DNA of 64,000 bases from Pseudanabaena sp. PCC 6802 (GTDB lineage Bacteria > Cyanobacteriota > Cyanobacteriia > Pseudanabaenales > Pseudanabaenaceae), in NCBI RefSeq assembly GCF_000332175.1, contig NZ_KB235914.1:1613368-1677367 (forward strand). Direction: 5' to 3'. The notes beneath the pieces were generated by a model. That model was given only the letters and a program-made list of their open reading frames with translations, was not told where the DNA came from and did not search any database. Each line of letters opens with the position of its first letter. The stretch's first letter is position 1. This document shows positions 3,368-29,326 of the stretch, piece after piece. A program made the position numbers and the translations under genes.

Positions 3368-3457
3368 CTGGTTGCAGGTAGCACGCAATTTTGTAGCAGA
3401 TAAACTACGATAGGCAGGATACAAATGCATCGTCAAAGCGCCAGCAACAAGACGATT

Positions 3458-4642
3458 ATGGCTCAAGTACGAGATTCGCAGAAAACGTTTAAACCCTGGG
3501 TAGTGGGCGCGATCGCGATCGCCACCTCCCTGGGGGTATTTGCCATAATTTCTAATGTCCTGCAAGCTCAAGCGCCGAAACCTACAGAGACCGCCACTGC
3601 CACCCCCAGTAAAAACGTTACCGCCCTCGGTCGCATCGAGCCAATGGGGCAAGTAATTAAACTATCGGTAATTAATGCCCAGGATAGCCGCGTTGATAAG
3701 CTCTTAGTTCAAGAAGGTGACTACGTAAAGGCAGAGCAGGTAATTGCAGTTTTGCAAGGTTTAGATAAAAAGAAGGCGGCGTTGGCGGAGGCGGAACAGG
3801 AGCTAGCCGTGCAGGAAGCCAAACTAGCGCAAACCCTTGCCGGAGAATCAAAAGTGGGGGAAATCGCTGCTCAGGAAGCTAATATAGCTCAATTAGAAGC
3901 CCGCCTGCGTACCGAAACGGCTGAGAAAAAGGCTGCCATCGCTCGCATTGAGGCGGAATTGCGTAACGATCGAATTACCTATCAACGCTATCAAACTCTC
4001 CACCAGGAGGGGGCGGTCAATACTTCTGATATTGATGAAAAGCGTAAGAATTGGGAAACTTCCCAAGCTAAATTAGATGAGGCAAAAGCACAGTTGGCGA
4101 ACGCGGAATCTACGCTCAAGGAGCAAATCCGCCAGCAGCAGGCCACTCTAGATAAGTTGCAAGAAGTGCGTCCCGTTGATGTGAGAGTGGCGCAAGCGCA
4201 AATGCAATATTCCAAAACTAAGGTGGCGACTGCTAAAGCCGATCTCGATGATGTTTACGTGCGCGTACCCGTAGCGGGTAGAATCCTCAAGATCAATACC
4301 CGCATCGGCGAGCAGGTGAATACGCAGCAGGGCATTGTGGAGTTGGGGCAAACCGATCGGATGTACGCGATCGCGGAAGTCTACGAAACCGATGTCTATA
4401 AGATTAAGCCAGGTCAGAGAGCCAGAATAACCAGCGAAAATGGTGGCTTTGAAGGAGAGCTACAAGGCACTGTCGATCGTATCGGTCTGCAAATTAAAAA
4501 GAAAAATGTCTTAGATTCCGATCCTGCTGCCGACAAAGATGCACGTGTAGTTGAGGTGAAGATTCGCATCGATTCCAAAGATAGTAAGAAAGTGGAGGCT
4601 CTCACTAACCTTCAGACGCGGATTTCGATCTCCTTGAATTAG
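3458..4642 (+). CDS. devB: DevB-like membrane fusion protein (HlyD family) of an ABC exporter
   Basis: About 394 residues when started at ATG 3458 (MAQVRDSQ); an upstream ATG at 3425 would add 11 residues. A single N-terminal transmembrane anchor (WVVGAIAIATSLGVFAIIS) is followed by the first half of a lipoyl-like domain (VTALGRIEPMGQVIKLS). Then comes a long alpha-helical hairpin rich in Ala, Glu and Gln, the second lipoyl half (DVYVRVPVAGRILKINTRIGE) and a beta-barrel domain. This order is that of periplasmic adaptor proteins of the DevBCA type. Such adaptors link the inner-membrane DevC/DevA transporter to a TolC-like outer-membrane channel, and in heterocystous species they export glycolipids. 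It is the first gene of a devBCA operon, with 10 bp to devC. Confidence 0.9.
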   Translation: MAQVRDSQKTFKPWVVGAIAIATSLGVFAIISNVLQAQAPKPTETATATPSKNVTALGRIEPMGQVIKLSVINAQDSRVDKLLVQEGDYVKAEQVIAVLQGLDKKKAALAEAEQELAVQEAKLAQTLAGESKVGEIAAQEANIAQLEARLRTETAEKKAAIARIEAELRNDRITYQRYQTLHQEGAVNTSDIDEKRKNWETSQAKLDEAKAQLANAESTLKEQIRQQQATLDKLQEVRPVDVRVAQAQMQYSKTKVATAKADLDDVYVRVPVAGRILKINTRIGEQVNTQQGIVELGQTDRMYAIAEVYETDVYKIKPGQRARITSENGGFEGELQGTVDRIGLQIKKKNVLDSDPAADKDARVVEVKIRIDSKDSKKVEALTNLQTRISISLN

Positions 4643-4652
4643 TTTAATCGTC

Positions 4653-5837
4653 ATGAAACTGCTACCCGCCAAAGATTTGCTAGATAATCTCGCGCACGAA
4701 CTACCGCTGGGATGGTCGCAACTCGCCCACAAAAAAGTGCGCTTTGCCGTAGCGCTGGCAGGAATTGGGTTTGCCAACGTCTTGATCTTTATGCAGCTTG
4801 GGTTTAGCTCGGCTCTTTTTGACGGAGTTACCCGCATTCACGATCGCCTCAAAGGAGATCTATTTCTTGTCAGTAAGCGATCGAGATATCTCGGCAATCG
4901 CGGGTTCCCTCGGAGTCATTTATACCAGGCAGCAGCAGTGGATAACGTTGCTTCAGCCCGCCCTTTTTACTATGCCCTGTCAGGATGGCGAAACCCTGAA
5001 AATAGGCTATTTGAAGATGTGGGCGTAATCGCCTTCAACCCCTCGCAGCCAATTCTAGATCTGCCAGAGGTGGAGCAACAAATGGATAAGATCGTTATTC
5101 CCGATACCGTATTATTCGATCGCCTATCTCAAGTGACGCTCGGCCCCGTACCCGAGATGTTGGCACAAGGGAAGCGCGTCACCTCTGAAATTAACAAACG
5201 CAAAGTTATTGCCACTGGTACATTCACTTTGGGTGGCACCTTGTTTAAAAGCGGCCACGTTATCACCAGCGATTGGAATTACCTGCGCATCTTTGGCAAA
5301 GATAGTCTGGACGAAATTCAAGTTGGCGTAATTGCGCTCAATCCAGGTGCGGATATCCAAACCGTACGGAGAAATATTAAAGCCAGCGTCCCAGAAGAGA
5401 TTCTAGTTCTCACCCGTAAAGACTTCGTACAGGTAGAGATCGACTTCTGGTCGCAGCACCCCGCCGGAGTGATTTTTGGCTTTGGTACGATTATGGGCTT
5501 CATCGTCGGAGTTGTCGTGGTCTATCAAGTTCTGTATTCTGATGTCAGCGATCATCTACCAGAATACGCTACCCTAAAGGCAATGGGCTACTCTAATCGA
5601 CGATTGCTAGGAGTAGTTTTTCAAGAGGCAGTGATTCTCGCAGTCTGCGGTTTTGTGCCGGGGTGTTTGGCTTCCCTCGGCATGTACGCTGGTTTGAGCC
5701 ATCTGACCAAACTACCCGTAAATATGCGTCCTCATGTCGCTACCCAGGTGTTTGTCCTCACTGTTTCCATGTGTACGATTTCCGCCGCGATCGCCTCGCG
5801 CAAACTCCAATCTGCCGACCCTGCCGATGTGTTTTAG
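4653..5837 (+). CDS. devC: DevC-like ABC exporter permease (FtsX/MacB type)
   Basis: A 394-aa permease. It opens with WSQLAHKKVRFAVALAGIGFAN, the juxtamembrane helix and first membrane segment typical of DevC. A large extracytoplasmic domain follows (roughly residues 40-260), then three C-terminal membrane helices: FGFGTIMGFIVGVVVVYQVL, EAVILAVCGFVPGCLASLG and VATQVFVLTVSMCTISAAIA. DHLPEYATLKAMGYSNRRL is the cytoplasmic coupling segment conserved in FtsX-like permeases. It forms the transmembrane half of an exporter with the ATPase encoded 19 bp downstream. The cargo is not visible; in relatives it is a lipid or glycolipid. Confidence 0.92.
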   Translation: MKLLPAKDLLDNLAHELPLGWSQLAHKKVRFAVALAGIGFANVLIFMQLGFSSALFDGVTRIHDRLKGDLFLVSKRSRYLGNRGFPRSHLYQAAAVDNVASARPFYYALSGWRNPENRLFEDVGVIAFNPSQPILDLPEVEQQMDKIVIPDTVLFDRLSQVTLGPVPEMLAQGKRVTSEINKRKVIATGTFTLGGTLFKSGHVITSDWNYLRIFGKDSLDEIQVGVIALNPGADIQTVRRNIKASVPEEILVLTRKDFVQVEIDFWSQHPAGVIFGFGTIMGFIVGVVVVYQVLYSDVSDHLPEYATLKAMGYSNRRLLGVVFQEAVILAVCGFVPGCLASLGMYAGLSHLTKLPVNMRPHVATQVFVLTVSMCTISAAIASRKLQSADPADVF

Positions 5838-5856
5838 ATTTTAACTATTCCGCACT

Positions 5857-6570
5857 ATGCCTCCACAACCCACCGTTTCTATCCGCAATCTCAACCACGC
5901 TTTTGGTAGTGGCAATCTCCGTAAACCAGTACTTAGCGATATTGATTTAGATATCAATCCTGGCGAAGTGGTGTTGCTCACCGGCCCATCAGGGAGCGGT
6001 AAAACTACGCTGCTTACTTTGATTGGTGGGTTGCGATCGTTACAGGAGGGCAGTTTGCAAATCCTCGGCCAAGAGCTATATGGTGCCAGCCAGAAGCAAA
6101 TGGTACAGGTGCGCAGCAATATTGGCTTTATCTTCCAGTCCAACAACCTTTTGGAATGCCTCACTGCCCATCAGAATGTCAGAATGTCTCTGCGCTTGCA
6201 CGATCGCATTCCCATGCGAGATCGCACCAAACTTTCGGTGGCGATGCTGGAGGCTGTTGGTTTGGGCGATCGCGCTGACTACTATCCCGCTGCTCTATCT
6301 GGCGGGCAAAAACAGCGGGTGGCGATCGCGCGGGCTTTAGTCAGCCATCCCAAACTCATCCTCGCAGACGAACCGACCGCCGCCCTGGACAGTCGATCTG
6401 GTAGAGATGTGGTGGAAATTATGCAACGCTTGGCAAGGGAGCAGGGATGTGCGATTCTACTCGTCACCCACGACAATCGCATTCTCGACGTTGCCGATCG
6501 CATCGTCAACATGGAAGACGGTCGCCTTACAACGCAAGATACAGTTGCGATCGCGATGGCGACAGAGTAA
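5857..6570 (+). CDS. devA: DevA-like ABC exporter ATPase
   Basis: A 237-aa ABC ATPase of the LolD/MacB class. Walker A is [11 protein letters not shown], the Q-loop is GFIFQSNNL, the signature is [15 protein letters not shown], Walker B is [13 protein letters not shown] and the switch histidine is in LVTHDN. It completes the devBCA set. glcD starts 27 bp downstream on the same strand, so cotranscription is possible, although no functional link is obvious. DevA homologue status rests on both sequence class and the B-C-A gene order. Confidence 0.92.
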
Positions 6571-8152: not shown

Positions 8153-9136
8153 TTAGCGTACAAATAGAGGCATCACTTCGGCGGAAGTAAAGAGACCGTG
8201 AATATGACGCTGGTGTAGCATTTTCCCTGCTTTGAGATAACCAAAGGCTGACCCGCAGACGTTCGCTGCCATACTGGTCTCATCGCCCAAAGTAAATGTG
8301 TGCGTGGAGATTTTGCCCTCAAAGGTTCTGCCCGTGAGTTTCATATTCGTACTGAGCGGTTTCTTGGGATTGCGCGTATCCACAACACCGCCAACCGTAA
8401 CGCGGGAGCGATCGCAAATTCCCAACCGCTCCAACAAAATATCGTCGGCATGTTCCATATTTTCGAGCGTAATGATGCCGTTAGTTTTCTCTAACAACGC
8501 TTCCACTTCCGCATCAGTCATCGCCTGCGCGGTTTCGACGCTGTAACCGGGCATATGGGCAATATCTTCGCGAATGGTGGCGCGATAGGCGGCCCAGTTG
8601 GCAATACCGACACCAAAGGTAATTTCGACACTATGGACTTCGGCAAAACTTTGGGCAGCGATCGAAGCTGCTGCGGTTAGCAAGCCCGGTGTCGCACCAC
8701 AACCAGTCATGTAGGTAATGCGATGCGCGGCGAGATCGCCAGACAAATCGATTAATTGTTCGACGGCGCTGGTACGCTTGATTGCATCGACCAAAACACC
8801 CTGCCACCCGGACTGGATGAATTGCCGAGCCACGCTTGCCATGAAAGTGTTAGGTAGGTTAGGTAAAGCTAGAAAGTAGCCGTCCACATCCCGTGCCGTA
8901 GCAATCAGGTTGGCAATACTGTCCTGACTGGCTGTGCCGTAGGACTCCAGGTGACCCACCGAACCCTTGGCTTGGTAGGCAGCGATCGCCGCACTTACGT
9001 TTAGACCGCTGGAACTGTAGGCGTAGCCGTCTCGATCTGCGATCGCCACCAATGTCATTTCCTGCTTGCCAGCTAGTAGTTTAGCTGCCGCCTGACCCAG
9101 ACCGCCAAAACCTAAAATTCCTACCTTAATCGTCAT
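8153..9136 (-). CDS. Saccharopine-dehydrogenase-like NAD(P)-dependent oxidoreductase
   Basis: About 327 residues from ATG 9136 ([19 protein letters not shown]); five residues more if ATG 9151 is used. The N-terminus is a Rossmann fold with GFGGLGQAA and an acidic end of beta-2 ([11 protein letters not shown]). The central block [16 protein letters not shown] resembles the catalytic region of saccharopine or carboxynorspermidine dehydrogenase-like enzymes. It belongs to a conserved cyanobacterial family usually annotated only as saccharopine-dehydrogenase-like. The substrate is unknown. The gene converges on glcD with a 37-bp gap and is divergent from the serC operon. Confidence 0.7.
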
Positions 9137-9224
9137 ATCAGCTTTACCCAATTTACTTACTCAAAAAGCCAGTCTTAATAATAACCCCGAAGGTATCTTA
9201 AAGTTTTGCACAAGGCAAAAATGA

Positions 9225-9294
9225 GTAATGTCATGACAAATGTAATCGGCAAAACGAGCAATGTCATGACAAGTGTAATCAGCCAGACATGACA
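9225..9294. promoter_or_regulatory. Repeated TGTCATGACA palindromes ahead of the serC-led operon
   Basis: Two copies of a perfect 10-bp palindrome TGTCATGACA lie at 9229-9238 and 9262-9271, each within a longer near-identical direct repeat (AATGTCATGACAARTGTAAT). A third copy with two mismatches, AGACATGACA, is at 9285-9294. They fill the 238-bp divergent region between the oxidoreductase gene and the serC-led operon. Their spacing (33 and 23 bp) and symmetry suggest operators for a dimeric regulator. The regulator itself is not identified. Confidence 0.5.
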
Positions 9295-9374: not shown

Positions 9375-10484
9375 ATGATAACGCTTCAAAAAACAACTTC
9401 TACTTTTAATTTTTCTCCCGGCCCAGGGGCGCTTCCTCTGGTGGTTTTAGAGGAAACTAGACAGGCGCTCGAACGATTGCCAAACGTACCTTTGTCAATT
9501 TTGGGAATCGGTCACCGTTCGCCATGGTTTGATGAGATCCTAAACGAAGCGGAGTCGAATTTAAGAAGCCTGCTAAATATTCCCACATCCTATAAAATCT
9601 TATTCTTGCAAGGTGGTAGCAGCCTGCAGTTTTCGATGGTTCCGATGAATCTCTTGCGCGGGAGCAATCGCACGGCAGACTACATTGTCTCGGGGTATTG
9701 GAGCGCAAAATCTGTTCCTGATGCCCAAAGAGAAGGCAATGTCCGGATTGCATGGGATGGAAGTGCGGATGGATTCATGCGGTTGCCGAATCGCTCCGAA
9801 CTCAACTTGACTCCCGACGCAGCTTACTTGCACTATATTTCAAATGAGACAGTTGAAGGGCTGCAATTTAATAGTATTCCGGGACTTCCCAATATACCGT
9901 TGGTTTGCGACATGTCTTCGGATTTCCTTTCTAGACCCTTTGACATAAATCGGTATGCCCTGGTGTACGCTCACGCTCAGAAGAATTTAGGCCCTTCGGG
10001 GGTGACAGTAGTTATTCTGCACGAAGATCTCCTGGCTAACATCCCAGACAATCTACATACGATGCTGGATTACCGCCCCCATGTTCTCAAGCGATCGAAT
10101 TACAATACGCCGCCGGTTTTTAGCATTTACGTCATGATGTTAGTAACGCGTTGGATGCTACGGGAGATCGCGAGCTTGGATGAAATGCACGATCTGAACA
10201 AACAGAAAGCAGAACGACTTTATCAGTCGATTGATGAAAGCGAGGGATTTTATCGAGGTCGGGCAGCAATTCAAAATCGCTCTTTGATGAATGTTGTGTT
10301 TAATATGGCCAGTCCACAGTTAGAGGCGGAGTTCGCTCAAGAGGCTCAGGCAAATGGAATCTTTGGGCTGGCAGGACATCGAACTTTAGGGGGACTGCGC
10401 GCTTCGCTTTACAATGCAGTGACCCTTGAGGCTGTTGATGCTCTCTGTAGGTTTATGTACCGTTTCCATCGCCGCCATCGTTAG
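9375..10484 (+). CDS. serC: SerC-family phosphoserine-type aminotransferase, first gene of a biosynthetic operon
   Basis: A 369-aa PLP enzyme of the class V aminotransferase fold. The N-terminal FNFSPGPGALP, GHRSPWFDEI, ISNETVEGLQF, DMSSDFLSRP and AHAQKNLGPSGVTVVIL motifs are those of phosphoserine aminotransferase. The Schiff-base lysine is Lys203 and the substrate-phosphate arginines and histidine lie in GHRTLGGLRASLYNAV. The known reaction is 3-phosphohydroxypyruvate plus glutamate to phosphoserine. In model cyanobacteria serine synthesis uses a different class V aminotransferase, so this copy may serve the operon rather than general metabolism. It is followed after 12 bp by the next gene, with a GGAGGGAAAG RBS between them. 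The family call is firm, while the role in the cluster is inferred. Confidence 0.88.
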   Translation: MITLQKTTSTFNFSPGPGALPLVVLEETRQALERLPNVPLSILGIGHRSPWFDEILNEAESNLRSLLNIPTSYKILFLQGGSSLQFSMVPMNLLRGSNRTADYIVSGYWSAKSVPDAQREGNVRIAWDGSADGFMRLPNRSELNLTPDAAYLHYISNETVEGLQFNSIPGLPNIPLVCDMSSDFLSRPFDINRYALVYAHAQKNLGPSGVTVVILHEDLLANIPDNLHTMLDYRPHVLKRSNYNTPPVFSIYVMMLVTRWMLREIASLDEMHDLNKQKAERLYQSIDESEGFYRGRAAIQNRSLMNVVFNMASPQLEAEFAQEAQANGIFGLAGHRTLGGLRASLYNAVTLEAVDALCRFMYRFHRRHR

Positions 10485-10496
10485 GAGGGAAAGAAA

Positions 10497-11075
10497 ATGC
10501 AGTTTTTTCTACTCGATCCCCAAGATCCATTCCAGCGCAATGAATACGAGCGTGCTTTTTTTCAAGCTTTTGCCAACCTCACCTCAAATCGTCTCGTCCG
10601 AAAGCTCTGGCTTTGGGACGACACCAAGCAAACTTTGCGAACCCGCATCCCTTACGATCGCCAACTAATCTATGCAGTGCGGGATTCAGACGGTATTTTA
10701 GATGCTGCTCTAGCGGTAAACTACAAACCCTCACAATTTCAATCGGCTGCGTTTGGCTTCTCACCTCCAGCAAGCGATCGGCAGTATTGCGAACTCATAA
10801 ACATCTTTTCTCTTCGCAATCGACACCTGCATCGACTACTCCAACTCTTGAGCTACTGCTTCACCGACTTACGTCAACAGGGTTGCCAGAGTGCTCTGGG
10901 AACAACTGCGGAACGACCTCTTCGCTCTTATCTTTGGGCTGGCGCGCACCTATTGGCGCAAACCGAAATTGATGGGGAAAAGCGATACTTCTTTGAATTT
11001 CCAGAGTCTGCGTTAGATCGTTGGGCTAGAGCTGATATAGACCAATGCACGCGAACCGTTTCAAGATTGAAGTGA
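10497..11075 (+). CDS. GNAT-like protein of unknown function in biosynthetic operon
   Basis: A 192-aa protein without a firm family match. The second half (CELINIFSLRNRHLHRLLQLL, then FTDLRQQGCQSALGTT and SYLWAGAHLLAQTEIDGEKR) follows the helix-strand-helix rhythm of a GNAT acyltransferase. There is an acidic beta strand, a helix, a strand with a TT-like bulge, and a final G-bearing helix and strand. The usual acyl-CoA pyrophosphate loop (Q/RxxGxG/A) is not clear, so catalysis is uncertain. It follows serC by 12 bp and precedes the fusion gene by 74 bp. That position makes it part of the same transcript, perhaps an acyltransferase for the amino group formed by the first enzyme; that is inference. 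Confidence 0.5.
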   Translation: MQFFLLDPQDPFQRNEYERAFFQAFANLTSNRLVRKLWLWDDTKQTLRTRIPYDRQLIYAVRDSDGILDAALAVNYKPSQFQSAAFGFSPPASDRQYCELINIFSLRNRHLHRLLQLLSYCFTDLRQQGCQSALGTTAERPLRSYLWAGAHLLAQTEIDGEKRYFFEFPESALDRWARADIDQCTRTVSRLK

Positions 11076-11149
11076 AGATGATATTTCGATGCGAATGAGA
11101 ACGCCAGTAAGTCGAGTCAATTTTTAATTTTTTCAACCGAGCAACTACC

Positions 11150-13405
11150 ATGGTCTCTACCCTTCCAAGTTTATCCAGATCGATTCCACAGAACTGGCCT
11201 GCCCAGGGGCCTATCGATTTAGCAATACACGACCTACCTCACAATGCTGCCATTGAGTGGTGGTATATCAACAGCCATTTCACAACCACTGACGGTCGTT
11301 CTCTTTCGCTCTTTGCATCGTTTTTTCGTAAAATTATCGGTTATGACGACGCAACGCAAGAGCCGCAATACGGTCACGCGCTAACGTGGGCGCTGAGCGA
11401 TACAGACAATCATCGTTACCATGCGGTATCGCTGGGCGATCGCTCTGGGCCAAAGACGGTGCTGGAGATGATGGATGGTGGCGAAAAGATTCTCCAGGAT
11501 CCCTGGATGGAACGCACGCTGCGCAAAATGTTAGAAGCTGGGAAAATTCCTGCCCCCGATCGCATGTTTGCAGGAGAAGCATATGCAGCCAGCGATCGCC
11601 TGGAACTGAACTACGACGGCTCGCGATTTCTCAAGCGCGAGGACGGTAGCTACTTGCTCGAACTCTGCGATCCAGAAGCAAAAATTGCTTGCAAGCTGGT
11701 GTTAACTCCGACAAAGCCGCCTACCCGCTACGGAAATAATGGGGCGATCGAGTTCAATAAGTTAACTACGTTCTACTATTTCATTCCCAGATTGGATGCC
11801 AGCGGTTATATCGAACAAAATGGTAGCAAACATGCGATAGATACAGGTATTGCCTGGTATGATCGCGAATTTGGCAGTGTATATCGCGATGAGAGCGATC
11901 GCGAGAACAGCGTGGCAGGGGCTGCCTGGACCTGGATGAGCATTCAGCTTGACAGCGGCTCGGATTTGCTCGTTTCTATGCTGATTGACAAAAGCAACAA
12001 TAAACTCATAGACAAATTTACGATCCTTGTCGATCCCAAGGGTAATTCTCGTCAATACGAAGATTTCTCCCTCAGTCCTGACAATCTCTGGCGCAGTCAG
12101 CAGACATTCAACGACTATCCAACGCACTGGGTACTCCAGGTTCCGGCGGCGAATTTGGAGCTACAGATTGCAGCTTGCTTCGACGAGCAGGAGTTCATCA
12201 CGTTAATTGCAGCACCAGCATTCTGGGAAGGATGCATATCGATGCGCGGAACCATCGACGGGCAGTCGGTTGTCGGTCGCGGATACTTGGAACGCAAAGG
12301 CTTTAACACAATTCACAGCATCGACGATTTTTTTACCGCTGTCGGTCGGGAAGTGCAGAAGTCAATCCACAATCTCCTGCCGGATATCCCAAGCAACGAG
12401 CAGGTTCGCTTTCTGATTGCTAACGGTGGAAACCACGAACTCTTGAATGACATCGATACCAATCGATTTGCGCGCAATATCATCGAGCCAATCCGAGAGA
12501 TAAGCGATCGCGGCGGTAAGTCGTGGCGTTCCTACGCGCTGATGGCCTGTTGCAATGCCGTAGGTGGCGACTTCCGTCCGTACATGCACTTGTTGGGAAT
12601 GCCCGAGTTGATCCACGTTGGTTCCCTCATCGTGGATGACGTACAAGATCGATCGACGGTTCGCCGAGGTGGAAAAACCTGTCACTTACTCTATGGCGAA
12701 CCACTGGCAATCAATGCCGGAACGGCCTGCTATTTCTTGAGCGAACTTCTGCTTCCGTCTGCAAACCTTTCCCCCGATATCAGATTGCAACTTTACGAGC
12801 TATTCTTCAAGACATTTCGCGCCGCGCATACGGGCCAGGCTTTCGATCTAGCAGGGTTGAATTCCGAGATGGATGCTGTCGTTGCCAGCGGAGATAGCTC
12901 GAAACTAGAACGCCAGGTGCTTACAACATGCTGGCTGAAAACGGCTGTACCAGCAGGAACGGCAGCCCGTGCGGGCGGTCTCATCGGTGGTGGTAGCAAG
13001 GAGCAAATCGAAGCTCTCGGACAGTATCTCGAAGCCCTCGGTCTTGCCTTTCAAATTATCGACGATATTCTTAACTTGCGAGGTTTCGAGCGCAACCTCA
13101 AGTTCCGTGGCGAGGATATCATGCAAGGAAAGGTGACGCTTCCCGTTGTCAAAGCCATGTCGCGGCTAACCCATGCAGATCGAACCTGGCTCTGGAATAC
13201 GTTACAGTCACAACCCAAAGAACCAGCAATCGTGTCCGCCTGTATTGACACGATCGCGCGCTGTGGCGCTCTAGAGGCTTGCAGCGATCGCGCGAGGGAA
13301 ATGGTAGAAAATGCCTGGCAATCTCTCGATCCGTTGCTTAAGGACTCCCAAACCAAGATTATGCTGCGTGCCTTCGGATTTTATCTACTGGAGCGGCATT
13401 ACTAG
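11150..13405 (+). CDS. Fusion of AttH/CrtC lipocalin-like domain with a trans-prenyl diphosphate synthase
   Basis: A 751-aa two-domain protein. Residues about 20-400 show the AttH/CrtC (carotenoid hydratase / lipocalin-like) pattern. HNAAIEWWY is at about 31-39, AWYDREFGS, then AAWTWMSIQLDSGSDLL and VVGRGYLERKGF. Residues about 410-751 are a trans-isoprenyl diphosphate synthase. The first Asp-rich motif is DDVQD at 496-500 and RRGGKTCHLL follows it. The second is FQIIDDILN with Asp638/Asp639, and MQGKVTLPVVKAM lies after that. All metal-binding motifs are intact, so prenyl chain synthesis is likely. Small residues before the first motif (GSLIV) suggest a GGPP-length or longer product. The lipocalin-like half may hydrate or cyclise a prenylated intermediate. 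A separate housekeeping GGPP synthase lies at 46257-47186, which supports a dedicated role here. Confidence 0.82.
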   Translation: MVSTLPSLSRSIPQNWPAQGPIDLAIHDLPHNAAIEWWYINSHFTTTDGRSLSLFASFFRKIIGYDDATQEPQYGHALTWALSDTDNHRYHAVSLGDRSGPKTVLEMMDGGEKILQDPWMERTLRKMLEAGKIPAPDRMFAGEAYAASDRLELNYDGSRFLKREDGSYLLELCDPEAKIACKLVLTPTKPPTRYGNNGAIEFNKLTTFYYFIPRLDASGYIEQNGSKHAIDTGIAWYDREFGSVYRDESDRENSVAGAAWTWMSIQLDSGSDLLVSMLIDKSNNKLIDKFTILVDPKGNSRQYEDFSLSPDNLWRSQQTFNDYPTHWVLQVPAANLELQIAACFDEQEFITLIAAPAFWEGCISMRGTIDGQSVVGRGYLERKGFNTIHSIDDFFTAVGREVQKSIHNLLPDIPSNEQVRFLIANGGNHELLNDIDTNRFARNIIEPIREISDRGGKSWRSYALMACCNAVGGDFRPYMHLLGMPELIHVGSLIVDDVQDRSTVRRGGKTCHLLYGEPLAINAGTACYFLSELLLPSANLSPDIRLQLYELFFKTFRAAHTGQAFDLAGLNSEMDAVVASGDSSKLERQVLTTCWLKTAVPAGTAARAGGLIGGGSKEQIEALGQYLEALGLAFQIIDDILNLRGFERNLKFRGEDIMQGKVTLPVVKAMSRLTHADRTWLWNTLQSQPKEPAIVSACIDTIARCGALEACSDRAREMVENAWQSLDPLLKDSQTKIMLRAFGFYLLERHY

Positions 13406-13441
13406 ATTTCTTTTCTGCAGTCAATAGCAAAAGATAGTACC

Positions 13442-14488
13442 ATGTCAAGAAATTCTGCGATCGCTTCCGACTTAGAAGTTGAAAATTCCAGTACGAACTC
13501 TCGTTTTCCCTTCACGTCTTTCCCTAATGGGTGGTTTAGAGTGGCCTATAGCGACGAACTCGCTCTGGAAGAAGTCAAGCCACTATACTACTTTGGTAGA
13601 GACCTCGTCCTCTTTCGCACCATTGATGGTATTCCACATCTACTCGATGCCCATTGTCCCCATCTGGGCGCTCATCTCGGTTATGGGGCAAGCGTTGCAG
13701 GCGAAACGATTCGCTGTCCCTTTCACGGCTGGCAATTCAATGGCAGCGGTCGGTGTACAAACGTCCCCTATACAAAGGAGGTTCCTCCTAGAGCACAGAT
13801 TAACTCTTGGCCGATTTGTGAAGTTAACGGCCTGATTCTCGCGTACCACGATGCAGAGAGAAAAACTCCCTCATGGCAAGTACCAGAATTTACGCAGTGG
13901 AATGCTAAAGACTGGACTCCTTTCCACCGTCAATCCTGGAAAATTCGCACGCACGCGCAAGAGATGGTAGAGAATAGCGTGGATACAACGCACTTTGTAG
14001 CTCTACACGGGGCACATACCTGCGAGCATGCGTTCCTAAAAACAGATGGCACCATATTAACCAATCGAATGCGCGGGGGATATAACGTCTCCTTGTTAGA
14101 AAAACTTATGATTCGAGGCGATATTGAAATCGACTACACCTTCTACGGTCTGGGTTTGTATACAACTCACAGTACCGGGCTGCATAGGGTTCGCAGCTGG
14201 ATCGATGCAACCCTAAAGTTGAACACCATTTTGATCTTCATGCTAACTCCAATCGATCGCGAATATCTCGACGTACATATCCTTTACAGTATTCGGAAAT
14301 TTGCAAATGGTGCAGTTACGCGAGCCATCTACAAAAAGACCCTTGCAGACACAATTAAACTGATCGAACAGGACATCCCCATTATGGAAAATAAACTTTA
14401 CCGCAGCGCTCCTTTACTCTGCGAAGGCGATGGCCCCATTATGCAATGCCGTCACTGGGCGTGTCAATTTTACTCGGAGGGAATCTAG
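13442..14488 (+). CDS. Rieske non-haem iron oxygenase (KshA/DAF-36-like)
   Basis: A 348-aa oxygenase. The Rieske [2Fe-2S] motif is C72-P-H74 with 17 residues to C92-PF-H95 (HCPHLGAHLG then RCPFHGWQF). The mononuclear iron site is ENSVDTTHFVALHG with His184 and His189 and the bridging Asp181. The third ligand is probably the Asp of EQDIPIMENKLY near the C-terminus. The overall pattern resembles 3-ketosteroid 9-alpha-hydroxylase (KshA) and DAF-36/Neverland enzymes, which act on polycyclic terpenoids. That fits a terpenoid substrate from the preceding gene. It needs a reductase from elsewhere. Its stop is 2 bp before the P450 start, so translation is probably coupled. Confidence 0.88.
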   Translation: MSRNSAIASDLEVENSSTNSRFPFTSFPNGWFRVAYSDELALEEVKPLYYFGRDLVLFRTIDGIPHLLDAHCPHLGAHLGYGASVAGETIRCPFHGWQFNGSGRCTNVPYTKEVPPRAQINSWPICEVNGLILAYHDAERKTPSWQVPEFTQWNAKDWTPFHRQSWKIRTHAQEMVENSVDTTHFVALHGAHTCEHAFLKTDGTILTNRMRGGYNVSLLEKLMIRGDIEIDYTFYGLGLYTTHSTGLHRVRSWIDATLKLNTILIFMLTPIDREYLDVHILYSIRKFANGAVTRAIYKKTLADTIKLIEQDIPIMENKLYRSAPLLCEGDGPIMQCRHWACQFYSEGI

Positions 14489-14490
14489 CA

Positions 14491-15900
14491 ATGACTCTGC
14501 CAAATGGCCCTCAAGCCCCCACTCTCTTACAACTATTGCAGCTAAGATTCAATCCCACCCACTACCTGGAAGCGGCTAATCGAAGGTGCCCCAATCTATT
14601 TGCGCTGAAATCCGCTTGGAATTCCAACCATCTAGTGATTGTCAATCACCCGCAGGCTCTCCGTCAGATGTTCGCAAATGAAACGACTCAATTTGATGCT
14701 CCTGGACAGTTACATGAGTTTTTCAAACCATTTTTGGGAGATTACTCAGTGATGACAGTGGATGGCGATCGCCACCAGCGACAACGCCACCTCCTCATGC
14801 CTGCTTTTCATGGAGAAAGGGTGTGGACTTACGGCCAACAAATTTGTAGCCTCACGCGATCGGTGATGGATGGAGTTGCTTGCGATCGCCCGTTTACGGC
14901 TCGCTCTAACATGCAGGAAATCGCTCTGAAAATCATGCTAGAAGTCATATTTGGCATCAGCGATGGGAAGCGCAGTCAGCGTTTTGAATGGCTGATTCGC
15001 GCGATTTTCGAGATCTTCAAATCCCCTGTAAGCTCCACGCTAATATTCTCTACTGCCGCACGCTGGGATTTAGGTCCTTGGAGTCCGTGGGGACATTTCC
15101 TCTCCCTAAAGCGAGAGTTAGACGAACTGATTTATACTGAAATTGCCGATCGTCGTCAAAATCCCCATTCCGAACGGCATGACATTCTGGCGCTGTTGAT
15201 GTCAGCCTGCGATGAAGATGGCATCCCGATGAGCGATGTAGAGATACGCGATGAATTGCTCTCCCTTTTGCTCTCAGGACACGAGACGACATCCGCCATT
15301 CTAGCTTGGGCGCTGTATTGGGTGCATCACTTAAGCGATGTCCGCCAGAGATTGCTGGCAGAGTTAGATGCATTAGACGGCGATCGCGACCCTAAATCCC
15401 TGTATCGACTTCCCTACCTTACAGCCGTCTGCCAGGAAACCATGCGAATTTATCCTGTTGCCTTCATGACGTTCCCGCGAGTGGTGAGATCGCCAGTTCG
15501 CTTACTGGACTGCGATCTCGACCCCGGTACGGTTCTGCTCGGGTGCATCTATCTCACGCACCAGCGCGAAGATCTCTATCCCGATCCCAAGCAATTCAAA
15601 CCAGAACGATTTTTAGAACGTCAGTTTTCTCCTTATGAGTTTTTGCCTTTTGGCGGTGGCAGCCGTCGCTGTATTGGCGCAGCTTTAGCGCAGATGACGA
15701 TCTCACTAGTGTTGGCAACGATCCTCTCAAACTACGAACTGGAGTTGGTAGATCGCGAATCCATACGCCCCCAAGTTCGGGGTCTTCTGCTCGTTCCTTC
15801 AGGAGGGGTAACCATGCGTCTCAAAGGGAAGCGCTCAGAAAAAGAGAGGCAGTCTTCAATGGCAGAAAGTTATGCTCCTTTAAATGCGAGGTTTCTATGA
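14491..15900 (+). CDS. Cytochrome P450, CYP110-like
   Basis: A 469-aa P450 started at ATG 14491, which has GGAGGG 9 bp upstream; an earlier in-frame ATG at 14446 lies inside the Rieske gene and is rejected. The I-helix oxygen-activation motif is SGHETTSA (residues 262-269), the ExxR motif is ETMR at 316-319, and the haem-binding loop is FGGGSRRCIG with Cys394. That haem loop and the overall length match CYP110, a class common in cyanobacteria that oxidises fatty acids and terpenes. It probably hydroxylates the product of the operon. The stop codon overlaps the start of the glycosyltransferase gene (ATGA). Confidence 0.92.
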   Translation: MTLPNGPQAPTLLQLLQLRFNPTHYLEAANRRCPNLFALKSAWNSNHLVIVNHPQALRQMFANETTQFDAPGQLHEFFKPFLGDYSVMTVDGDRHQRQRHLLMPAFHGERVWTYGQQICSLTRSVMDGVACDRPFTARSNMQEIALKIMLEVIFGISDGKRSQRFEWLIRAIFEIFKSPVSSTLIFSTAARWDLGPWSPWGHFLSLKRELDELIYTEIADRRQNPHSERHDILALLMSACDEDGIPMSDVEIRDELLSLLLSGHETTSAILAWALYWVHHLSDVRQRLLAELDALDGDRDPKSLYRLPYLTAVCQETMRIYPVAFMTFPRVVRSPVRLLDCDLDPGTVLLGCIYLTHQREDLYPDPKQFKPERFLERQFSPYEFLPFGGGSRRCIGAALAQMTISLVLATILSNYELELVDRESIRPQVRGLLLVPSGGVTMRLKGKRSEKERQSSMAESYAPLNARFL

Positions 15901-17189
15901 GCAGCCGCATCGTAATTTGCACCAATGGCACCCTGGGCGACTTTTATCCTTATCTGGCGATCGCGCTGGAGTTGAAAGCGCGGGGTCACTCAGTAGTCCT
16001 TGCCACAGGAAGACTTTACCAAACAGAGGTTGAGACTCAGGGTATTGAGTTTTATCCCATTCAACCCGATCTTTCCTCTTATACTCCTGAAGCACTGCGA
16101 GCAGCGATAAGTAAGATGATGGATTGTAAACGAGGTACGGAATACGTTCTGCGCCAGCTATTGATCCCTCATGTCAAAACTAGTTACGATGCTATGATGG
16201 ATATTGTACGCGGAGCTGACTTGTTGCTGACCCACCCACTTTTCTTTGCAGGCCCCCTAGTAGCAGAGAAAACGGGCATTCGCTGGGTGTCTACCGTACT
16301 GGCTCCCATTTCAATTCCTTCGATTTACGATCCTGCCGTCCTGAACGCAGACAGTCTCATTCAGCCGAAAATGGTTAAGCCCTGGCTGGCTCGCCTTTTA
16401 CAGCAACTCGGTAGATGGTACCTGCGTCCCTGGAGCGAACCAATACGACAGCTACGTAACGAACTGGGTTTATCCATTGGAGGCGATCCGCTCTTTGAAG
16501 GTCAGTTTTCGCCTCACCTCGTCCTGGCACTGTTCTCTCAGGTTCTCGCTATTCCTCAACCGGACTGGCCTTCTCAGGTTCGCATCGCTGGTTTTATGTT
16601 TGACGATCGCGATCGTACCAATCGCTTGCCGCCAGAATTAATCGACTTCCTGGATGCAGGTTCTCCTCCTATCGTGTTTACGCTGGGTTCGTCAGCCGTT
16701 TGGGATGCGGATGACTTTTTTATAGAGAGTGCGCTGGCAGCGAGACGCTCAGGCTATCGCGCCGTCTTGCTCGCCGGGCCGGATGTCGATCGCTTGCCAT
16801 CGGAGTGTCTGTCAGAAAACATCGTTGCCTTTGGCTACGTTCCCCATTCAGCTCTGTTCCCACGTGCGGCAGCCATTGTACTCCACGGCGGCATTGGGAC
16901 TACAGCCCAAGCACTGCGCTCCGGTCGCCCGATGTTGTTCGTTCCCTACGCCCACGATCAGCCGGATAACGCTGCTCGCGCTAAGCGGTTGGGCGTTGCG
17001 CGCATTCTCTCTCGCCGTCGCTATAAGGCCAATCGCCTCGCAATCGAACTGAGATCGTTGCTTGAAGACAGCTCTTACACGAACCGCGCTGCAGAAATTA
17101 GCTTGCGAGTGCGGGCAGAAACTGGAGTTCGGGCAGCTTGCGATGCGATCGAAGCACAACTCAAAGTTCCACCCAGAGTTGTAACCTAG
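15897..17189 (+). CDS. GT1-family (UGT/MurG-like) glycosyltransferase
   Basis: A 430-aa GT-B fold enzyme. The N-terminal domain opens with IVICTNGTLGDFYPYLAIA, the glycine-rich acceptor-side loop of UGT and sterol or natural-product glucosyltransferases. The C-terminal donor domain has FGYVPHSALFPRAAAIVLHG, GIGTTAQALRSGRPMLFVP and AHDQPDNAARAKRLGVAR, the nucleotide-sugar signature. It is expected to add a sugar to a hydroxyl created by the Rieske or P450 enzyme. ATGA overlap with the P450 gene indicates translational coupling. The donor sugar and acceptor are not readable from the sequence. Confidence 0.9.
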   Translation: MSSRIVICTNGTLGDFYPYLAIALELKARGHSVVLATGRLYQTEVETQGIEFYPIQPDLSSYTPEALRAAISKMMDCKRGTEYVLRQLLIPHVKTSYDAMMDIVRGADLLLTHPLFFAGPLVAEKTGIRWVSTVLAPISIPSIYDPAVLNADSLIQPKMVKPWLARLLQQLGRWYLRPWSEPIRQLRNELGLSIGGDPLFEGQFSPHLVLALFSQVLAIPQPDWPSQVRIAGFMFDDRDRTNRLPPELIDFLDAGSPPIVFTLGSSAVWDADDFFIESALAARRSGYRAVLLAGPDVDRLPSECLSENIVAFGYVPHSALFPRAAAIVLHGGIGTTAQALRSGRPMLFVPYAHDQPDNAARAKRLGVARILSRRRYKANRLAIELRSLLEDSSYTNRAAEISLRVRAETGVRAACDAIEAQLKVPPRVVT

Positions 17190-17225
17190 CAATTTCCACA
17201 TTATCGTTTAGGAGCAAATTTCTGA

Positions 17226-18056
17226 ATGACACGATTTAATCTACCTTCTGTTGCAGAGGTCACCCTTAAGAACGGCGCAAAGATCTTCTGCCTGCATAAA
17301 GGTGAAGCACAATTTATGGCTGAAGAGGTCAAAGAGTATCTCAAACATGGTATTGAGATTCAAGAAGGCGATACTATATTCGATGTAGGCGCTAATATTG
17401 GCGTTTTTACAATCTGGGCATACCAGCTATGCGATCGCAATGCCAACATCTATGCCTTTGAGCCAATTCCCAAAATTTTTGACGTGCTGTTCCGCAATGC
17501 TCGACGTTTCAATTTCGAGAATCTGAAAGTATTTCCATACGGGCTGGCACAGGAACCTAAAACAGCGACATTCGCCTATTATCCCGCTGCAACACTGTGG
17601 TCGAGTGCCGATCTCGACTTTTCCAAAGAACAGATTGAGGAGTCAAAGAATGCCGTACTCCGCAATATCGAAGCAACACCTCTCTGGTTTCAGCGTCTTC
17701 CCGGTTTCCTGCGAAAAGCCTTTGTTGATTATATGTTTGGGAGAACAACTAGGAATGCGGAGCGCGTCACCTGTCAATTGAGGACGCTTTCTGAAGTTGT
17801 CCGCGAACAATGCATTTGTCAGATTGACTTGCTCAAAATAGATGTCGAAAAAGGTGAGTTGGATGTTCTTCTCGGGATTGAAGAACGAGATTGGCCTAAA
17901 ATCAAACAAGTTGCGATCGAAGTTCACGATGTAGATCGTCGAGTCGAGACGATTTCGGCTTTGCTCAAAGCACGCGGACTGGACGCGATTACCGTAGACC
18001 AGCAACCTATCCTCAAAGGTTCCAGCGTTTTCCTACTTTATGCTAAGCGCCAGTAG
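17226..18056 (+). CDS. FkbM-family SAM-dependent methyltransferase
   Basis: A 276-aa methyltransferase. The SAM-binding motif I is IFDVGANIGVFTIWA, the acidic end of beta-2 is AFEPIPKIF, and the C-terminal FkbM block is DLLKIDVEKGELDVLLGI followed by IKQVAIEVHD. FkbM enzymes usually O-methylate sugars or hydroxyls in natural products and polysaccharides. It is the last gene of the run that begins with serC, 36 bp after the glycosyltransferase, and may methylate the added sugar. The next gene is convergent and ends 32 bp away. Confidence 0.9.
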   Translation: MTRFNLPSVAEVTLKNGAKIFCLHKGEAQFMAEEVKEYLKHGIEIQEGDTIFDVGANIGVFTIWAYQLCDRNANIYAFEPIPKIFDVLFRNARRFNFENLKVFPYGLAQEPKTATFAYYPAATLWSSADLDFSKEQIEESKNAVLRNIEATPLWFQRLPGFLRKAFVDYMFGRTTRNAERVTCQLRTLSEVVREQCICQIDLLKIDVEKGELDVLLGIEERDWPKIKQVAIEVHDVDRRVETISALLKARGLDAITVDQQPILKGSSVFLLYAKRQ

Positions 18057-18088: not shown

Positions 18089-21000
18089 TCAGCGCTCAAC
18101 TGCACCCAAAGCCTGCAAGGTAACTTTTTGAGCGGTAGTTAAACCCGTGACACCTTTGATATTCATACCTTCGTAGGGACGATCTACGCGCAGGGTCTTC
18201 AGACATTCCCCCGATCGCGTATCCCAAAAACGAATGGTTTCATCTTCTCCCGCACTGGCTAAAATGTGAGCTTCTTCGCTGTTAGGGCTGAAGGCGATCG
18301 CCCAGACTGGCTTGCTATGCCCGACGAGTGTTTGGATACAAACAGCATCGCGAGGACTCCAGACCTTAACGAGGCAATCATCGCCGCAGGTCGCCAGGAT
18401 CTTATGTTTAGGGCTGGGATGCAGGATAGCGGCTCGCACGGGACGCTCGTGACCTTCCAAAGTTTGGAGGCATTCATAGGTTTCACCATGCCAAAATTTC
18501 ACCGTGCGATCGCCACTGCTACTGGTCAGGCGAGCGCCACAAGGACTATAAGCTACAGACGAGATCCATCCTTCATGACCGGATAAAACCTGGAGGCAAT
18601 TGCCAGTTGCGATATCCCAGATCCGAACGTTTTTGTCATCGCTTCCGCTCGCGAGTGTCTTGCCATTAGGATGGAAGACTATCGACTTGACGCGATCGCT
18701 ATGCCCTTTAAAAATATGCAAGCATTCGCCAGTAACGATATCCCACAACCTCACGGTCTGGTCGTGGCTGCTACTAGCGATAGTTTTACCGTCAGGACTA
18801 AATGCCACAGATTGAATCCAACTACTATGCCCGAGGAAGGTTCTCATACATTCGCCACTGCTGACATCCCATAGCTTTATGCTGCGATCGTCGCTGCCAC
18901 TGAGAATAGTCTTGCTGTCGGGGCTAAACGCTACCGCTGGCACCCAATTAGTATGCCCTCGCAATACTTTAATGCATTTGCCAGTACTTACATCCCATAT
19001 CCTTGCCGACCGATCCTTATTTCCACTTGCAAGCAAACGTCCATCACTACTGAACGATAGAGATGAAATCATATTACTATGCGATTCCAATGTCTTTAGA
19101 CATTGCCCAGTTGCGGTATCCCAAATCTTGACGATCTCATCTTCACCCACACTAACCAGCACAGATCTATCCATGCTAAAGTTTACGGACCAGACGCGAT
19201 CGCTATGACCGTGGAAAGTTTTCACTCGTTTACCATTGGCGATATCCCATATCTGCACGGTTCTGTCTTCATTGCCAATTGCAAGCAATCGATCGTCGGC
19301 ACTGAAGTCGATCGCCCAGGCATATTGGCTATAGCCCTGTAAGGCGTGCGAGAAGGTACCAGTTATGGCATTGTATAATCCGATCTTATTGCCATCGCAG
19401 CCGATCGCCAGAATTTTTCCATCATGACTGAGCGCGATGGATAGCATCCAATTGATATTGACTGGAATTATATATTGGCACTCTCCTGTAGTTAAATTCC
19501 ATAAATCTACCCAACGATCGCTGCCACTAATCAGGTTTTTTCCGTCGGAGCTAAAAATTACTGCCGTAACGCGATCGCCTTGTGCCTGTATGGTTTGAAG
19601 GCAGGCACCATCGCTAACCTGCCATAATTTAATCGTGCAATCGCTACTACCACTAGCCAGAATGCTGCTGTCCGGGCTAAAGAAAACAGAAAGGACGCGC
19701 CCGCTATGACCGCGTAAGGTCTTTAAACATTGCCCCGTGCAAGCATCCCACAGCCTTACAGTACCGTCATGGCTCCCACTGGCAAGGATACTGCCATCGG
19801 AACTAAACTTCAACGCTACTACCCAATCCGTATGACCGCAAAGATTAAAAAGTAACTTACCACTGCTAAGTTGCCAGATACAAATTTCCTGCTCTAAACC
19901 CGTAGCCAGAACCTGGCTGTCGGGGCTAATCGCAGTCGAAAGAATGCTACCAGTCGTTCTAATAAATACAGATCTGCTTAAATCAGCTCGTGCAAAGTTG
20001 ACGTAGTGAAGATTAATCCCCTGAAGATAGGCTTGCCACACGGCAATGTTAGAAAAATCAAAATAGCTTAAATCGATGTCCAAACAGTGCATCAAATTGA
20101 GAATATTGCCGCCAGCGTAACCCAATCTTTTAGGACTTTGCTCTCTCATGTCTGAGAGCATCCGATCGAAGTAGGCTTTGGTACGATCTTCAGTCACGAA
20201 AAAACGCCGTAACATGTCTGCCAGCGGCTTGAGGACTAATCTGACTTGCGTTTCGCGAATATAGTCTTTAGCCTGGGCTTTGATGAGAGCGTAGGTATTC
20301 CAGTAAGGGAGATCGTGCATTAAAACAGGTCGAGTATTGGTAATTTCCAAGTAAATTTGCTCGACTAGACGATCGCTAACATACTCCATTACTACGGGTT
20401 GTTGGGTAAAGCTGTGTTGCTGTTTTTCGATTAGCGATCGCACTTTGAGCGACTCCAATGCCTCTATTAGCTGCCTCGGTAAAACTGGCGTGACAAAGTC
20501 TTCCTGGAGGGTACTGATATCTATCCATTCACGGTTAATTGCCAGCCAGAACATCACCTGTTGCTCTAGATGAGTGAGGCGGTTAAACTGCTGTTCGATC
20601 AAATCGCGAATGTCGCCAAACACAGAATTATGGCTCGTCCAAAAAGCAGCAACATCGCTGCCGTACTGCTCGCGTATCCTGGTTGCAACAATCTTCAGAG
20701 CTAATGGATTGCCCCCATAATGCTGAATCAAAGAATGCCACTGTTCTTCAGAACCGGACAGACCTTTCACCCTAAAAATCTCGCTTCCTTCCGATTGCAA
20801 TCCACTTAAGAGAAACGAACGTACTGGTAACCTTGGCCCTTCATTCGATGACATTCCACTTGGTTTCTCGCGGCTAGTCAAGATCGCACAACTGTTATGA
20901 AGTTCGTCGCCAATACGACGCAGCATTTGACCGTAATTTTCATAGCCAGGTCGATATAAGCCAACGCGATAGTCGATCTCGCTGCCACCATCCCCAGCAC

Positions 21001-21769
21001 TTCTAAGAATTGATTCAAAATTATCCAAAACGATCAAACAGCGCTCGGAGCGCAAATAATCCATCAATTTTGTCAACAACCCATCAAGAGTCTGCGGCAT
21101 TGCCACGCTATCTCCCCTTCGATCCGCGATCGCCTGGATGGAGCTGACTAAGATGCTTTCCACTGTAGGCGCATTCCGCAGCGATCGCCAAATCACGAAT
21201 CTGAAAGCCTTAAACGCCGATCGTGCTTCCCTCCTTTCCTCACCATCTTCTCCAACCTCCAGCCCTTCACCGCCAAACTCTAAAATCTTTTCAACTAACT
21301 TCGCTACCAAAGATGTCTTCCCAATTCCCCCCATGCCTAGAATGGCAACTAAACGGCAGCGATCGGAAGTAATCCATTCAAACAAAGTATCCAATTCCTG
21401 CACGCGCCCACAAAATATTGAGACATCAATTACCTCATCACAATCCTGGTAAATCGATACTTTCTGACTTTGTGGCAAAGTAATTTCAGTATCCAATACT
21501 TTTACTCGTCGCTGACAACGACTCAGGACGGCTCGAATGTTTCCTTTGCTGACTGGTTCGCCGAGAATTTCGCTCAGGGTATGCCAAACCTCAGAGCCAA
21601 CTTTCCTGACATAGTCTCCATCATAGTCAGAGTTGTTTGCCATCTCCGCATAGGTACTTCCTTCGCAGCTTTGGCGAATTACTAATTCTTGAACATCTGT
21701 GAAGGTATCGGATCGCCCTCTTTGCCGCATGACTTCATACAACACGGCGATCGCTTCTGTGCCGTTCAT
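18089..21769 (-). CDS. NB-ARC ATPase with 14 WD40 repeats (STAND protein)
   Basis: A 1226-aa protein. Residues 1-90 are a helical N-terminal domain of the kind found before NB-ARC in cyanobacterial STAND proteins (vMAP-like). The NTPase domain starts with VSIFCGRVQELDTLFEWI, has the P-loop GMGGIGKTSL (145-154) and Walker B CLIVLDNFESIL. A short pentapeptide-like stretch (LQGINLHYVNFARADLSRSVF) leads into 14 WD40 repeats, enough for two seven-bladed propellers. Most repeats end in a GH/WD pair, and repeat 4 lacks residues in its last strand. STAND proteins oligomerise on ligand sensing, and some act in phage defence or programmed death. No separate effector domain is obvious. The gene is monocistronic and convergent with the biosynthetic operon. 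Confidence 0.88.
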   Translation of the reverse strand: MNGTEAIAVLYEVMRQRGRSDTFTDVQELVIRQSCEGSTYAEMANNSDYDGDYVRKVGSEVWHTLSEILGEPVSKGNIRAVLSRCQRRVKVLDTEITLPQSQKVSIYQDCDEVIDVSIFCGRVQELDTLFEWITSDRCRLVAILGMGGIGKTSLVAKLVEKILEFGGEGLEVGEDGEERREARSAFKAFRFVIWRSLRNAPTVESILVSSIQAIADRRGDSVAMPQTLDGLLTKLMDYLRSERCLIVLDNFESILRSAGDGGSEIDYRVGLYRPGYENYGQMLRRIGDELHNSCAILTSREKPSGMSSNEGPRLPVRSFLLSGLQSEGSEIFRVKGLSGSEEQWHSLIQHYGGNPLALKIVATRIREQYGSDVAAFWTSHNSVFGDIRDLIEQQFNRLTHLEQQVMFWLAINREWIDISTLQEDFVTPVLPRQLIEALESLKVRSLIEKQQHSFTQQPVVMEYVSDRLVEQIYLEITNTRPVLMHDLPYWNTYALIKAQAKDYIRETQVRLVLKPLADMLRRFFVTEDRTKAYFDRMLSDMREQSPKRLGYAGGNILNLMHCLDIDLSYFDFSNIAVWQAYLQGINLHYVNFARADLSRSVFIRTTGSILSTAISPDSQVLATGLEQEICIWQLSSGKLLFNLCGHTDWVVALKFSSDGSILASGSHDGTVRLWDACTGQCLKTLRGHSGRVLSVFFSPDSSILASGSSDCTIKLWQVSDGACLQTIQAQGDRVTAVIFSSDGKNLISGSDRWVDLWNLTTGECQYIIPVNINWMLSIALSHDGKILAIGCDGNKIGLYNAITGTFSHALQGYSQYAWAIDFSADDRLLAIGNEDRTVQIWDIANGKRVKTFHGHSDRVWSVNFSMDRSVLVSVGEDEIVKIWDTATGQCLKTLESHSNMISSLSFSSDGRLLASGNKDRSARIWDVSTGKCIKVLRGHTNWVPAVAFSPDSKTILSGSDDRSIKLWDVSSGECMRTFLGHSSWIQSVAFSPDGKTIASSSHDQTVRLWDIVTGECLHIFKGHSDRVKSIVFHPNGKTLASGSDDKNVRIWDIATGNCLQVLSGHEGWISSVAYSPCGARLTSSSGDRTVKFWHGETYECLQTLEGHERPVRAAILHPSPKHKILATCGDDCLVKVWSPRDAVCIQTLVGHSKPVWAIAFSPNSEEAHILASAGEDETIRFWDTRSGECLKTLRVDRPYEGMNIKGVTGLTTAQKVTLQALGAVER

Positions 21770-27995: not shown

Positions 27996-28030
27996 AATAT
28001 GTAGTCGTTCAACAAGGATGCCCGTTAGCT

Positions 28031-29321: not shown

Positions 29322-29326
29322 GCATT

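Follow-up and report, generated by a model that had tools for sequence, protein, structure and literature searches.

A seven-gene block of Pseudanabaena sp. PCC 6802 with an AttH/CrtC::prenyl-synthase fusion and the terpenoid it may make

What might a cyanobacterium make with a prenyl synthase that is fused to a hydratase-like domain and followed by oxygenases, a glycosyltransferase and a methyltransferase? This question is raised by a 64,000-nucleotide stretch of the Pseudanabaena sp. PCC 6802 genome (contig NZ_KB235914.1, positions 1,613,368 to 1,677,367), termed the window below, in which seven open reading frames (ORFs) lie closely spaced on the + strand. In order, they encode a SerC-type aminotransferase (gene 1), an orphan protein (gene 2, or orf2), the AttH/CrtC::prenyl-synthase fusion (gene 3), a Rieske oxygenase (gene 4), a cytochrome P450 (gene 5), a GT1-type glycosyltransferase (gene 6) and an FkbM-family methyltransferase (gene 7). 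All seven ORFs are found where a first-pass annotation of the sequence had placed them, and Pfam and NCBIfam agree with its family calls for six of the seven genes, all but gene 2.

We consider it about evenly balanced that these genes form an operon for the biosynthesis of a terpenoid that is oxidised, glycosylated and methylated; the fusion would make a prenyl chain and then hydrate (or cyclise) it. Few enzymes are able to hydrate or cyclise unactivated prenyl double bonds without a cofactor, and those that can are wanted for biocatalysis. Joined in nature to the supplier of its prenyl chain, as in the fusions of at least five phyla, a domain of this kind would be a testable new terpenoid-forming architecture and would mark an unexplored cluster family.

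The fusion protein and its two halves

The AlphaFold2 model of gene 3, for which an alignment of 21 fusions served as input, is confident in both halves, with a predicted local distance difference test score (pLDDT) of 89.3 and a predicted template modelling score (pTM) of 0.89. In this predicted model the C-terminal half superposes on the geranylgeranyl diphosphate (GGPP) synthase 1wy0 (Z 38.2, root-mean-square deviation (rmsd) 2.0, 323 residues). It carries a first Asp-rich motif, DDVQD, at residues 496–500 and a second, DDILN, at residues 638–642, together with Lys457, Arg460, RR505–506 and Lys597, the features by which trans-isoprenyl diphosphate synthases are recognised. The 24 fusions compared show no variation at D496, D497, D500, R460, RR505–506 and K597. 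Gene 3 has the fold, the first Asp-rich motif and the Lys/Arg residues in common with these synthases, and differs from them in its second motif, which ends in Asn (DDxxN), and in its added N-terminal AttH domain. Because the prenyl-synthase half is intact, the prenyl-derived core proposed by the first-pass annotation is supported.

The N-terminal half contains the CrtC domain PF07143 (62.8 bits, cut-off 22.5), and gene 3 is the only PF07143 protein in the genome. In the predicted model, the entire half adopts the double-barrel lipocalin-type fold of AttH (2ich; Z 36.5, rmsd 2.6, 304 residues) and of kievitone hydratase from Nectria haematococca (7a0q, Z 31.7, rmsd 3.1, 300 residues; also 7a0t). 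A sequence search with gene 3 alone retrieves the same two proteins, at 3e-28 for AttH and 3e-5 for kievitone hydratase. The shared WYDR or WLDR motif is also found by phmmer, which aligns WYDREFG of gene 3 with WLDREWS of AttH and WYDRQWG of kievitone hydratase. Kievitone hydratase hydrates the prenyl group of kievitone (PMC6013536). Both of these proteins stand alone, unlike the fused gene 3, and kievitone hydratase is a secreted enzyme whose substrates are prenylated flavonoids.

In purple bacteria CrtC is accompanied by the O-methyltransferase CrtF, and an O-methyltransferase is likewise found in the present block. CrtC adds water at the terminal double bond of C12–C20 terpenes, including farnesol and geranylgeraniol, and mutation has shown D268, W110, W283 and W285 to be essential (PMC12402844); His239 and Tyr266 are also essential (PMC4717167). 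When the motifs are aligned by way of AttH and kievitone hydratase, D238, W38, W260 and W262 of gene 3 emerge as the likely counterparts of the first four residues, with W38 equated to W110 from its position only. Residue 238 is Asp in 20 of the 24 fusions, Glu in 3 and Gln in 1, while Trp is kept at W38 in 22, at W260 in 22 and at W262 in 23. Trp236 of gene 3 occupies the position of CrtC Tyr266, and kievitone hydratase likewise reads WYD here. Y209 and F211 lie at about the spacing of CrtC His239 and Trp241, a pair mapped by spacing only. Since counterparts of His239 and Tyr266 are missing, the half is not filed as CrtC; on the basis of the model, it is filed as an AttH/kievitone-hydratase fold that would work like CrtC. 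Gene 3 differs from CrtC further in being fused to a prenyl synthase and in being closer to AttH and kievitone hydratase, and the putative operon contains no carotenoid genes. Because it combines the predicted fold of a prenyl hydratase with much of the catalytic signature, the AttH/CrtC half is itself likely a hydratase or a noncanonical cyclase.

Relatives of the fusion and their neighbourhoods

Relatives of the fusion were sought on plasmids and in 84,980 species genomes. In the scan of these genomes, a single-protein query gave no matches and a query made from a four-sequence alignment recovered the family. None of the 386 sampled cyanobacterial genomes contains a full-length relative of gene 3. 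In all, 23 further fusions were found, mostly full length and 26–50% identical to gene 3, so the view that the fusion is confined to this genome was rejected. Their hosts are Myxococcota, Bacteroidota, Cyanosarcina radialis, a Tolypothrix plasmid, actinomycetes, a Pseudomonadota metagenome-assembled genome (MAG), Nitrosomonas stercoris and a Phycisphaerales MAG. By identity, the closest relatives are myxobacterial (50%), and a tree of the fusions gives no reliable placement of the gene 3 protein. The patchy spread across taxa suggests that the fusion may have moved by horizontal transfer.

Neither an AttH::prenyl-synthase fusion nor the seven-gene putative operon was found described in the open-access literature searched, which agrees with the first-pass remark that the gene order was not recognised as that of any described cluster. 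Every assignable domain belongs to a known family, and it is the fusion of these domains and the putative operon that appear to be new. That the fusions are a new type of terpenoid-forming enzyme is a realistic prospect. Somewhat tentatively, we propose that the AttH::prenyl-synthase fusions constitute a family, spread over several phyla and not yet described, in which a single protein makes the terpenoid scaffold. The AttH domain would act as a hydratase or cyclase on its partner's chain, and here the family would give rise to cyanobacterial terpenoid glycosides of a new class, with sterol-type tailoring.

Genes were called in the 23 fusion loci and in 55 control loci with ordinary prenyl synthases. 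In 4 of the 23 fusion loci and in none of the 55 controls, a homologue of the gene 6 GT1 is found at most two genes from the fusion or as part of the same polypeptide (Fisher p = 0.006). These four loci belong to Tolypothrix, a Myxococcales MAG, Cyanosarcina and Membranihabitans. The Cyanosarcina radialis locus (L051) is a tight same-strand block in the order fusion, FkbM, GT1, whose proteins are 47%, 37% and 27% identical to those described here; SerC, orf2, Rieske and P450 genes do not adjoin it. On the plasmid of Tolypothrix sp. PCC 7601 (L044, 9586–14178), a 1530-residue protein is made up of a sulfotransferase-like part, a GT1, an AttH part and a prenyl synthase in one polypeptide. This protein (PCC 7601/7712) is 34% identical to gene 3 over the AttH::prenyl-synthase part and differs in the extra sulfotransferase-like part and in the lack of adjoining SerC, Rieske, P450 and FkbM genes. 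Its gene is flanked by DevBCA-type exporter genes and insertion sequence (IS) elements.

The GT1s beside other fusions include no close orthologue of gene 6, and relatives 46–48% identical to it occur in four other cyanobacteria, remote from any fusion. Because these closer GT1s sit away from fusions, the association is one of enzyme type and not of a co-inherited pair. For the same reason, the putative operon looks like a composite of parts that differ in origin, even though in base composition it matches the host. The first-pass expectation that homologues would be found together elsewhere holds in part: fusion and GT1 occur together in four loci, with FkbM in one, and the full order occurs nowhere. 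Conservation of the whole block was therefore rejected, as 0 of the 23 fusion loci has the seven-gene order. This order is unique among the genomes searched, the fusion and GT1 core is recurrent, and the present putative operon is the most elaborate of the fusion clusters seen.

ATP-binding cassette (ABC) transporter genes lie near several other fusions, and LolA-like lipid-carrier genes near two. In loci L053 (2083–7023) and L061 (1–5307), the neighbours of the fusion encode an ABC ATPase, a methyltransferase and a lipid carrier resembling LolA, which suggests that a lipid product of these fusions may be transported. A diverged fusion on the Nitrosomonas stercoris plasmid (L046, 11359–14864) has an AttH part without the EWWY region and is followed by a flavin monooxygenase-like gene.

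Tailoring genes, genes 1 and 2, and the proposed pathway

Gene 4 has the motif CPH-x17-CPFH of a Rieske cluster, the facial-triad motif DTTHFVALH and a KshA_C domain, as is typical of KshA-type Rieske enzymes. It aligns over its full length with its nearest solved relative, the 3-ketosteroid 9-alpha-hydroxylase KshA (4qdc, 1e-39), and its assignment to SdmA was rejected on an NCBIfam score of 73 bits against a cut-off of 600. Its best relatives found are 48% and 46% identical, and both are in a sterol-type gene group of the Cyanosarcina genome (L150, 8627–19857). Besides two Rieske enzymes of the KshA type, this group encodes a member of the squalene-cyclase family, a squalene epoxidase, an ERG4/ERG24 reductase, a P450 and one more Rieske enzyme. 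In this it resembles the sterol cluster with Rieske enzymes reported for Calothrix NIES-4105 (PMC10202945). Gene 5 carries the heme motif FGGGSRRCIG along with SGHETT and QETMR (ExxR), which mark it as a P450; the narrower CYP110-like label of the first-pass annotation is unconfirmed. Gene 6 has the GT-B EryCIII-like/UDPGT C-terminal domain that defines it as a GT1, and its nearest solved protein is a yeast sterol 3-beta-glucosyltransferase (1e-23). The two oxygenases, the GT1 and the FkbM methyltransferase of the first-pass pathway are thus confirmed at the level of domains.

In the bacterial sterol clusters of Calothrix and Cyanosarcina, as in the pathway proposed here, a terpenoid is oxidised by Rieske and P450 enzymes. 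Those clusters use squalene epoxidase and oxidosqualene cyclase; such a cyclase is undetected in the present genome. This genome (5.6 Mb, 99.7% complete) gave no matches to the squalene-hopene/oxidosqualene cyclase family PF13243 in a search in which control genomes did, which for this family supports the earlier statement that no standard terpene cyclase is present. A search for class I terpene synthases (PF19086) also gave no matches in the genome, but it gave none in the control genomes either. Sterol-type tailoring enzymes thus occur here without any detected sterol cyclase. Because no such cyclase was detected, an endogenous steroid seems unlikely as the substrate of gene 4, and the product of gene 3 is more likely to be what the tailoring enzymes act on.

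The amino group that the first-pass annotation placed on the terpenoid is not supported, because gene 1 has the features of a true phosphoserine aminotransferase (PSAT), which it looks to be. It keeps the pyridoxal phosphate (PLP)-lysine motif AQKNLGP as well as GHRSP and GHRTLGGLRASLYNA, and solved PSATs match it over its entire length (1e-108). NCBIfam PRK05355 scores 437 bits (cut-off 253) and PRK12462 scores 547 bits (cut-off 563). No SerC other than gene 1 was found in the genome. A SerC of its type occurs in 17 of 194 cyanobacterial genomes, this one included, and in only one other of the same class; gene 1 is thus not the usual cyanobacterial enzyme.

Gene 2 gives no Pfam match even at E = 1, none in NCBIfam at the default threshold and no lead in a PDB profile search, and its AlphaFold2 model is unusable (pLDDT 39). 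The GNAT-like label once given to it is therefore unconfirmed. Among 390 genomes of the class it has one homologue, 39% identical (L169, 11705–12250), which lies in an unrelated setting with cytochrome b6f genes nearby. Genes 1 and 2 may be passengers, or they may contribute a supply of serine.

In the pathway that we propose, the C-terminal half of gene 3 would make a linear prenyl diphosphate, and Asp238 of the N-terminal half would protonate a prenyl double bond of the chain. Water would quench the resulting cation and yield a tertiary alcohol; were water kept out, an internal double bond would do so and a ring would form. Oxygenation of the hydrocarbon by the Rieske enzyme and the P450 would follow, the GT1 would add a sugar to a hydroxyl, and the FkbM enzyme would O-methylate. 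We infer the order of these steps, the size of the substrate and the preference for hydration over cyclisation.

Several observations weigh against this pathway. CrtC His239 and Tyr266 are unmatched in gene 3, with no evident His in place of the former. The sterol-like best matches of the GT1 and the Rieske enzyme partly reflect which structures are solved. Moreover, SerC, gene 2, Rieske and P450 genes are near 0 of the 23 other fusions, so that their link to the fusion comes from one genome, and the partners shared with the fusion elsewhere are the GT1 only, plus FkbM once. If the AttH/CrtC half were instead a noncanonical, protonation-started terpene cyclase in the same operon, then the Rieske enzyme, P450 and GT1 would decorate a polycyclic, sterol-sized core. 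The KshA-like gene 4 with its closest relatives found in a sterol-type cluster, the resemblance of gene 6 to a sterol glucosyltransferase, the undetected squalene-hopene/oxidosqualene cyclase and the likening of CrtC's catalytic logic to that of squalene-hopene cyclase (PMC4717167) all fit this reading. We nevertheless regard it as rather improbable, given that the closest characterised prenyl-acting enzyme of the fold is a hydratase, that CrtC hydrates open-chain terpenes and that the literature searched yielded no terpene cyclase of the AttH type.

The AttH fold also houses Diels-Alderases, such as CghA (PMC8159843), which speaks against hydration as well. The AttH half could accordingly bind or present a prenyl lipid, or be another AttH enzyme such as a pericyclase, and the operon would then lead to a glycolipid or a meroterpenoid whose acceptor comes from elsewhere. 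The ABC exporter and LolA-like genes around other fusions are in keeping with this, but almost every fusion retains the Asp and Trp of the hydratase signature, and we judge it unlikely. A further alternative, compatible with the hydratase pathway for genes 3–7, concerns the extent of the operon: a housekeeping SerC and orf2 could be transcribed together with a separate five-gene terpenoid group. That SerC has PSAT motifs and is the only one found in the genome, that neither it nor orf2 is ever near another fusion, and that the widest gap (74 bp) falls between genes 2 and 3 make this a serious contender, if one that falls short of an even chance. Against it, the seven genes share one strand, promoter-like and terminator-like sites inside the block are in no excess over shuffled sequence, and the rarity of SerC in this class marks gene 1 as an unusual enzyme.

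Layout and surroundings of the block

The gaps between genes 1 to 7 are 12, 74, 36, 2, -4 and 36 bp, as the first-pass annotation had them, provided that the P450 starts at 14491. The longest ORF of gene 5 runs from 14446; the ATG at 14491 has GGAGGG just before it and is the preferred start. The seven genes are tightly packed and may be cotranscribed. The features of the block and its upstream region are collected in the table below.

Table. Positions of the block genes and upstream features in the window
Feature	Coordinates	Strand	Basis
Gene 1, SerC-type class-V aminotransferase, 369 aa	9375..10484	+	Pfam Aminotran_5, NCBIfam
Gene 2, orphan protein, 192 aa	10497..11075	+	without Pfam or NCBIfam match
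Gene 3, AttH/CrtC (aa ~12-386) :: trans-prenyl diphosphate synthase (aa ~390-751), 751 aa	11150..13405	+	Pfam CrtC, Lipocalin_9, polyprenyl_synt
Gene 4, KshA-type Rieske non-heme iron oxygenase	13442..14488	+	Pfam Rieske + KshA_C
Gene 5, cytochrome P450	14491..15900	+	Pfam p450 3.6e-69
Gene 6, GT1-type glycosyltransferase	15897..17189	+	Pfam EryCIII-like_C, Glyco_transf_28, UDPGT
Gene 7, FkbM-family methyltransferase	17226..18056	+	Pfam Methyltransf_21 5.5e-17; TIGR01444 3.2e-26
Two tandem 33-bp repeats, each with 10-bp palindrome TGTCATGACA, between bioU and gene 1	9218..9283		
DevB-DevC-DevA-type ABC exporter upstream of block	3425..6570	+	ORF calls

The block is preceded by the divergent gene bioU at 8153–9151, an NCBIfam equivalog with a score over the cut-off, and the spacer between bioU and gene 1 is 223 bp long and contains both 33-bp repeats. 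The palindrome TGTCATGACA occurs at only two sites in the whole window, both in these repeats, which are a possible operator. On the other side, the convergent neighbour at 18089–21769 encodes a 1226-residue protein with a putative ATPase N-terminal half and many WD40 repeats. GC content and GC at third codon positions (GC3) of the seven genes are like those of the rest of the window; there is thus no compositional sign of a recent insertion of the block, and such an insertion was rejected on composition.

The DevBCA exporter is separated from gene 1 by a glcD-like gene and bioU. The best match to its DevC within the family has just 46% identity, and the genome contains several DevC paralogues. 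For these reasons the exporter was dropped as specific evidence; it is a possible exporter of the product, with uncertain membership in the pathway. Elsewhere in the window, positions 28001–30000 are AT-rich (GC 0.396 against about 0.49 around them), and an ORF starts from a GTG at 28074.

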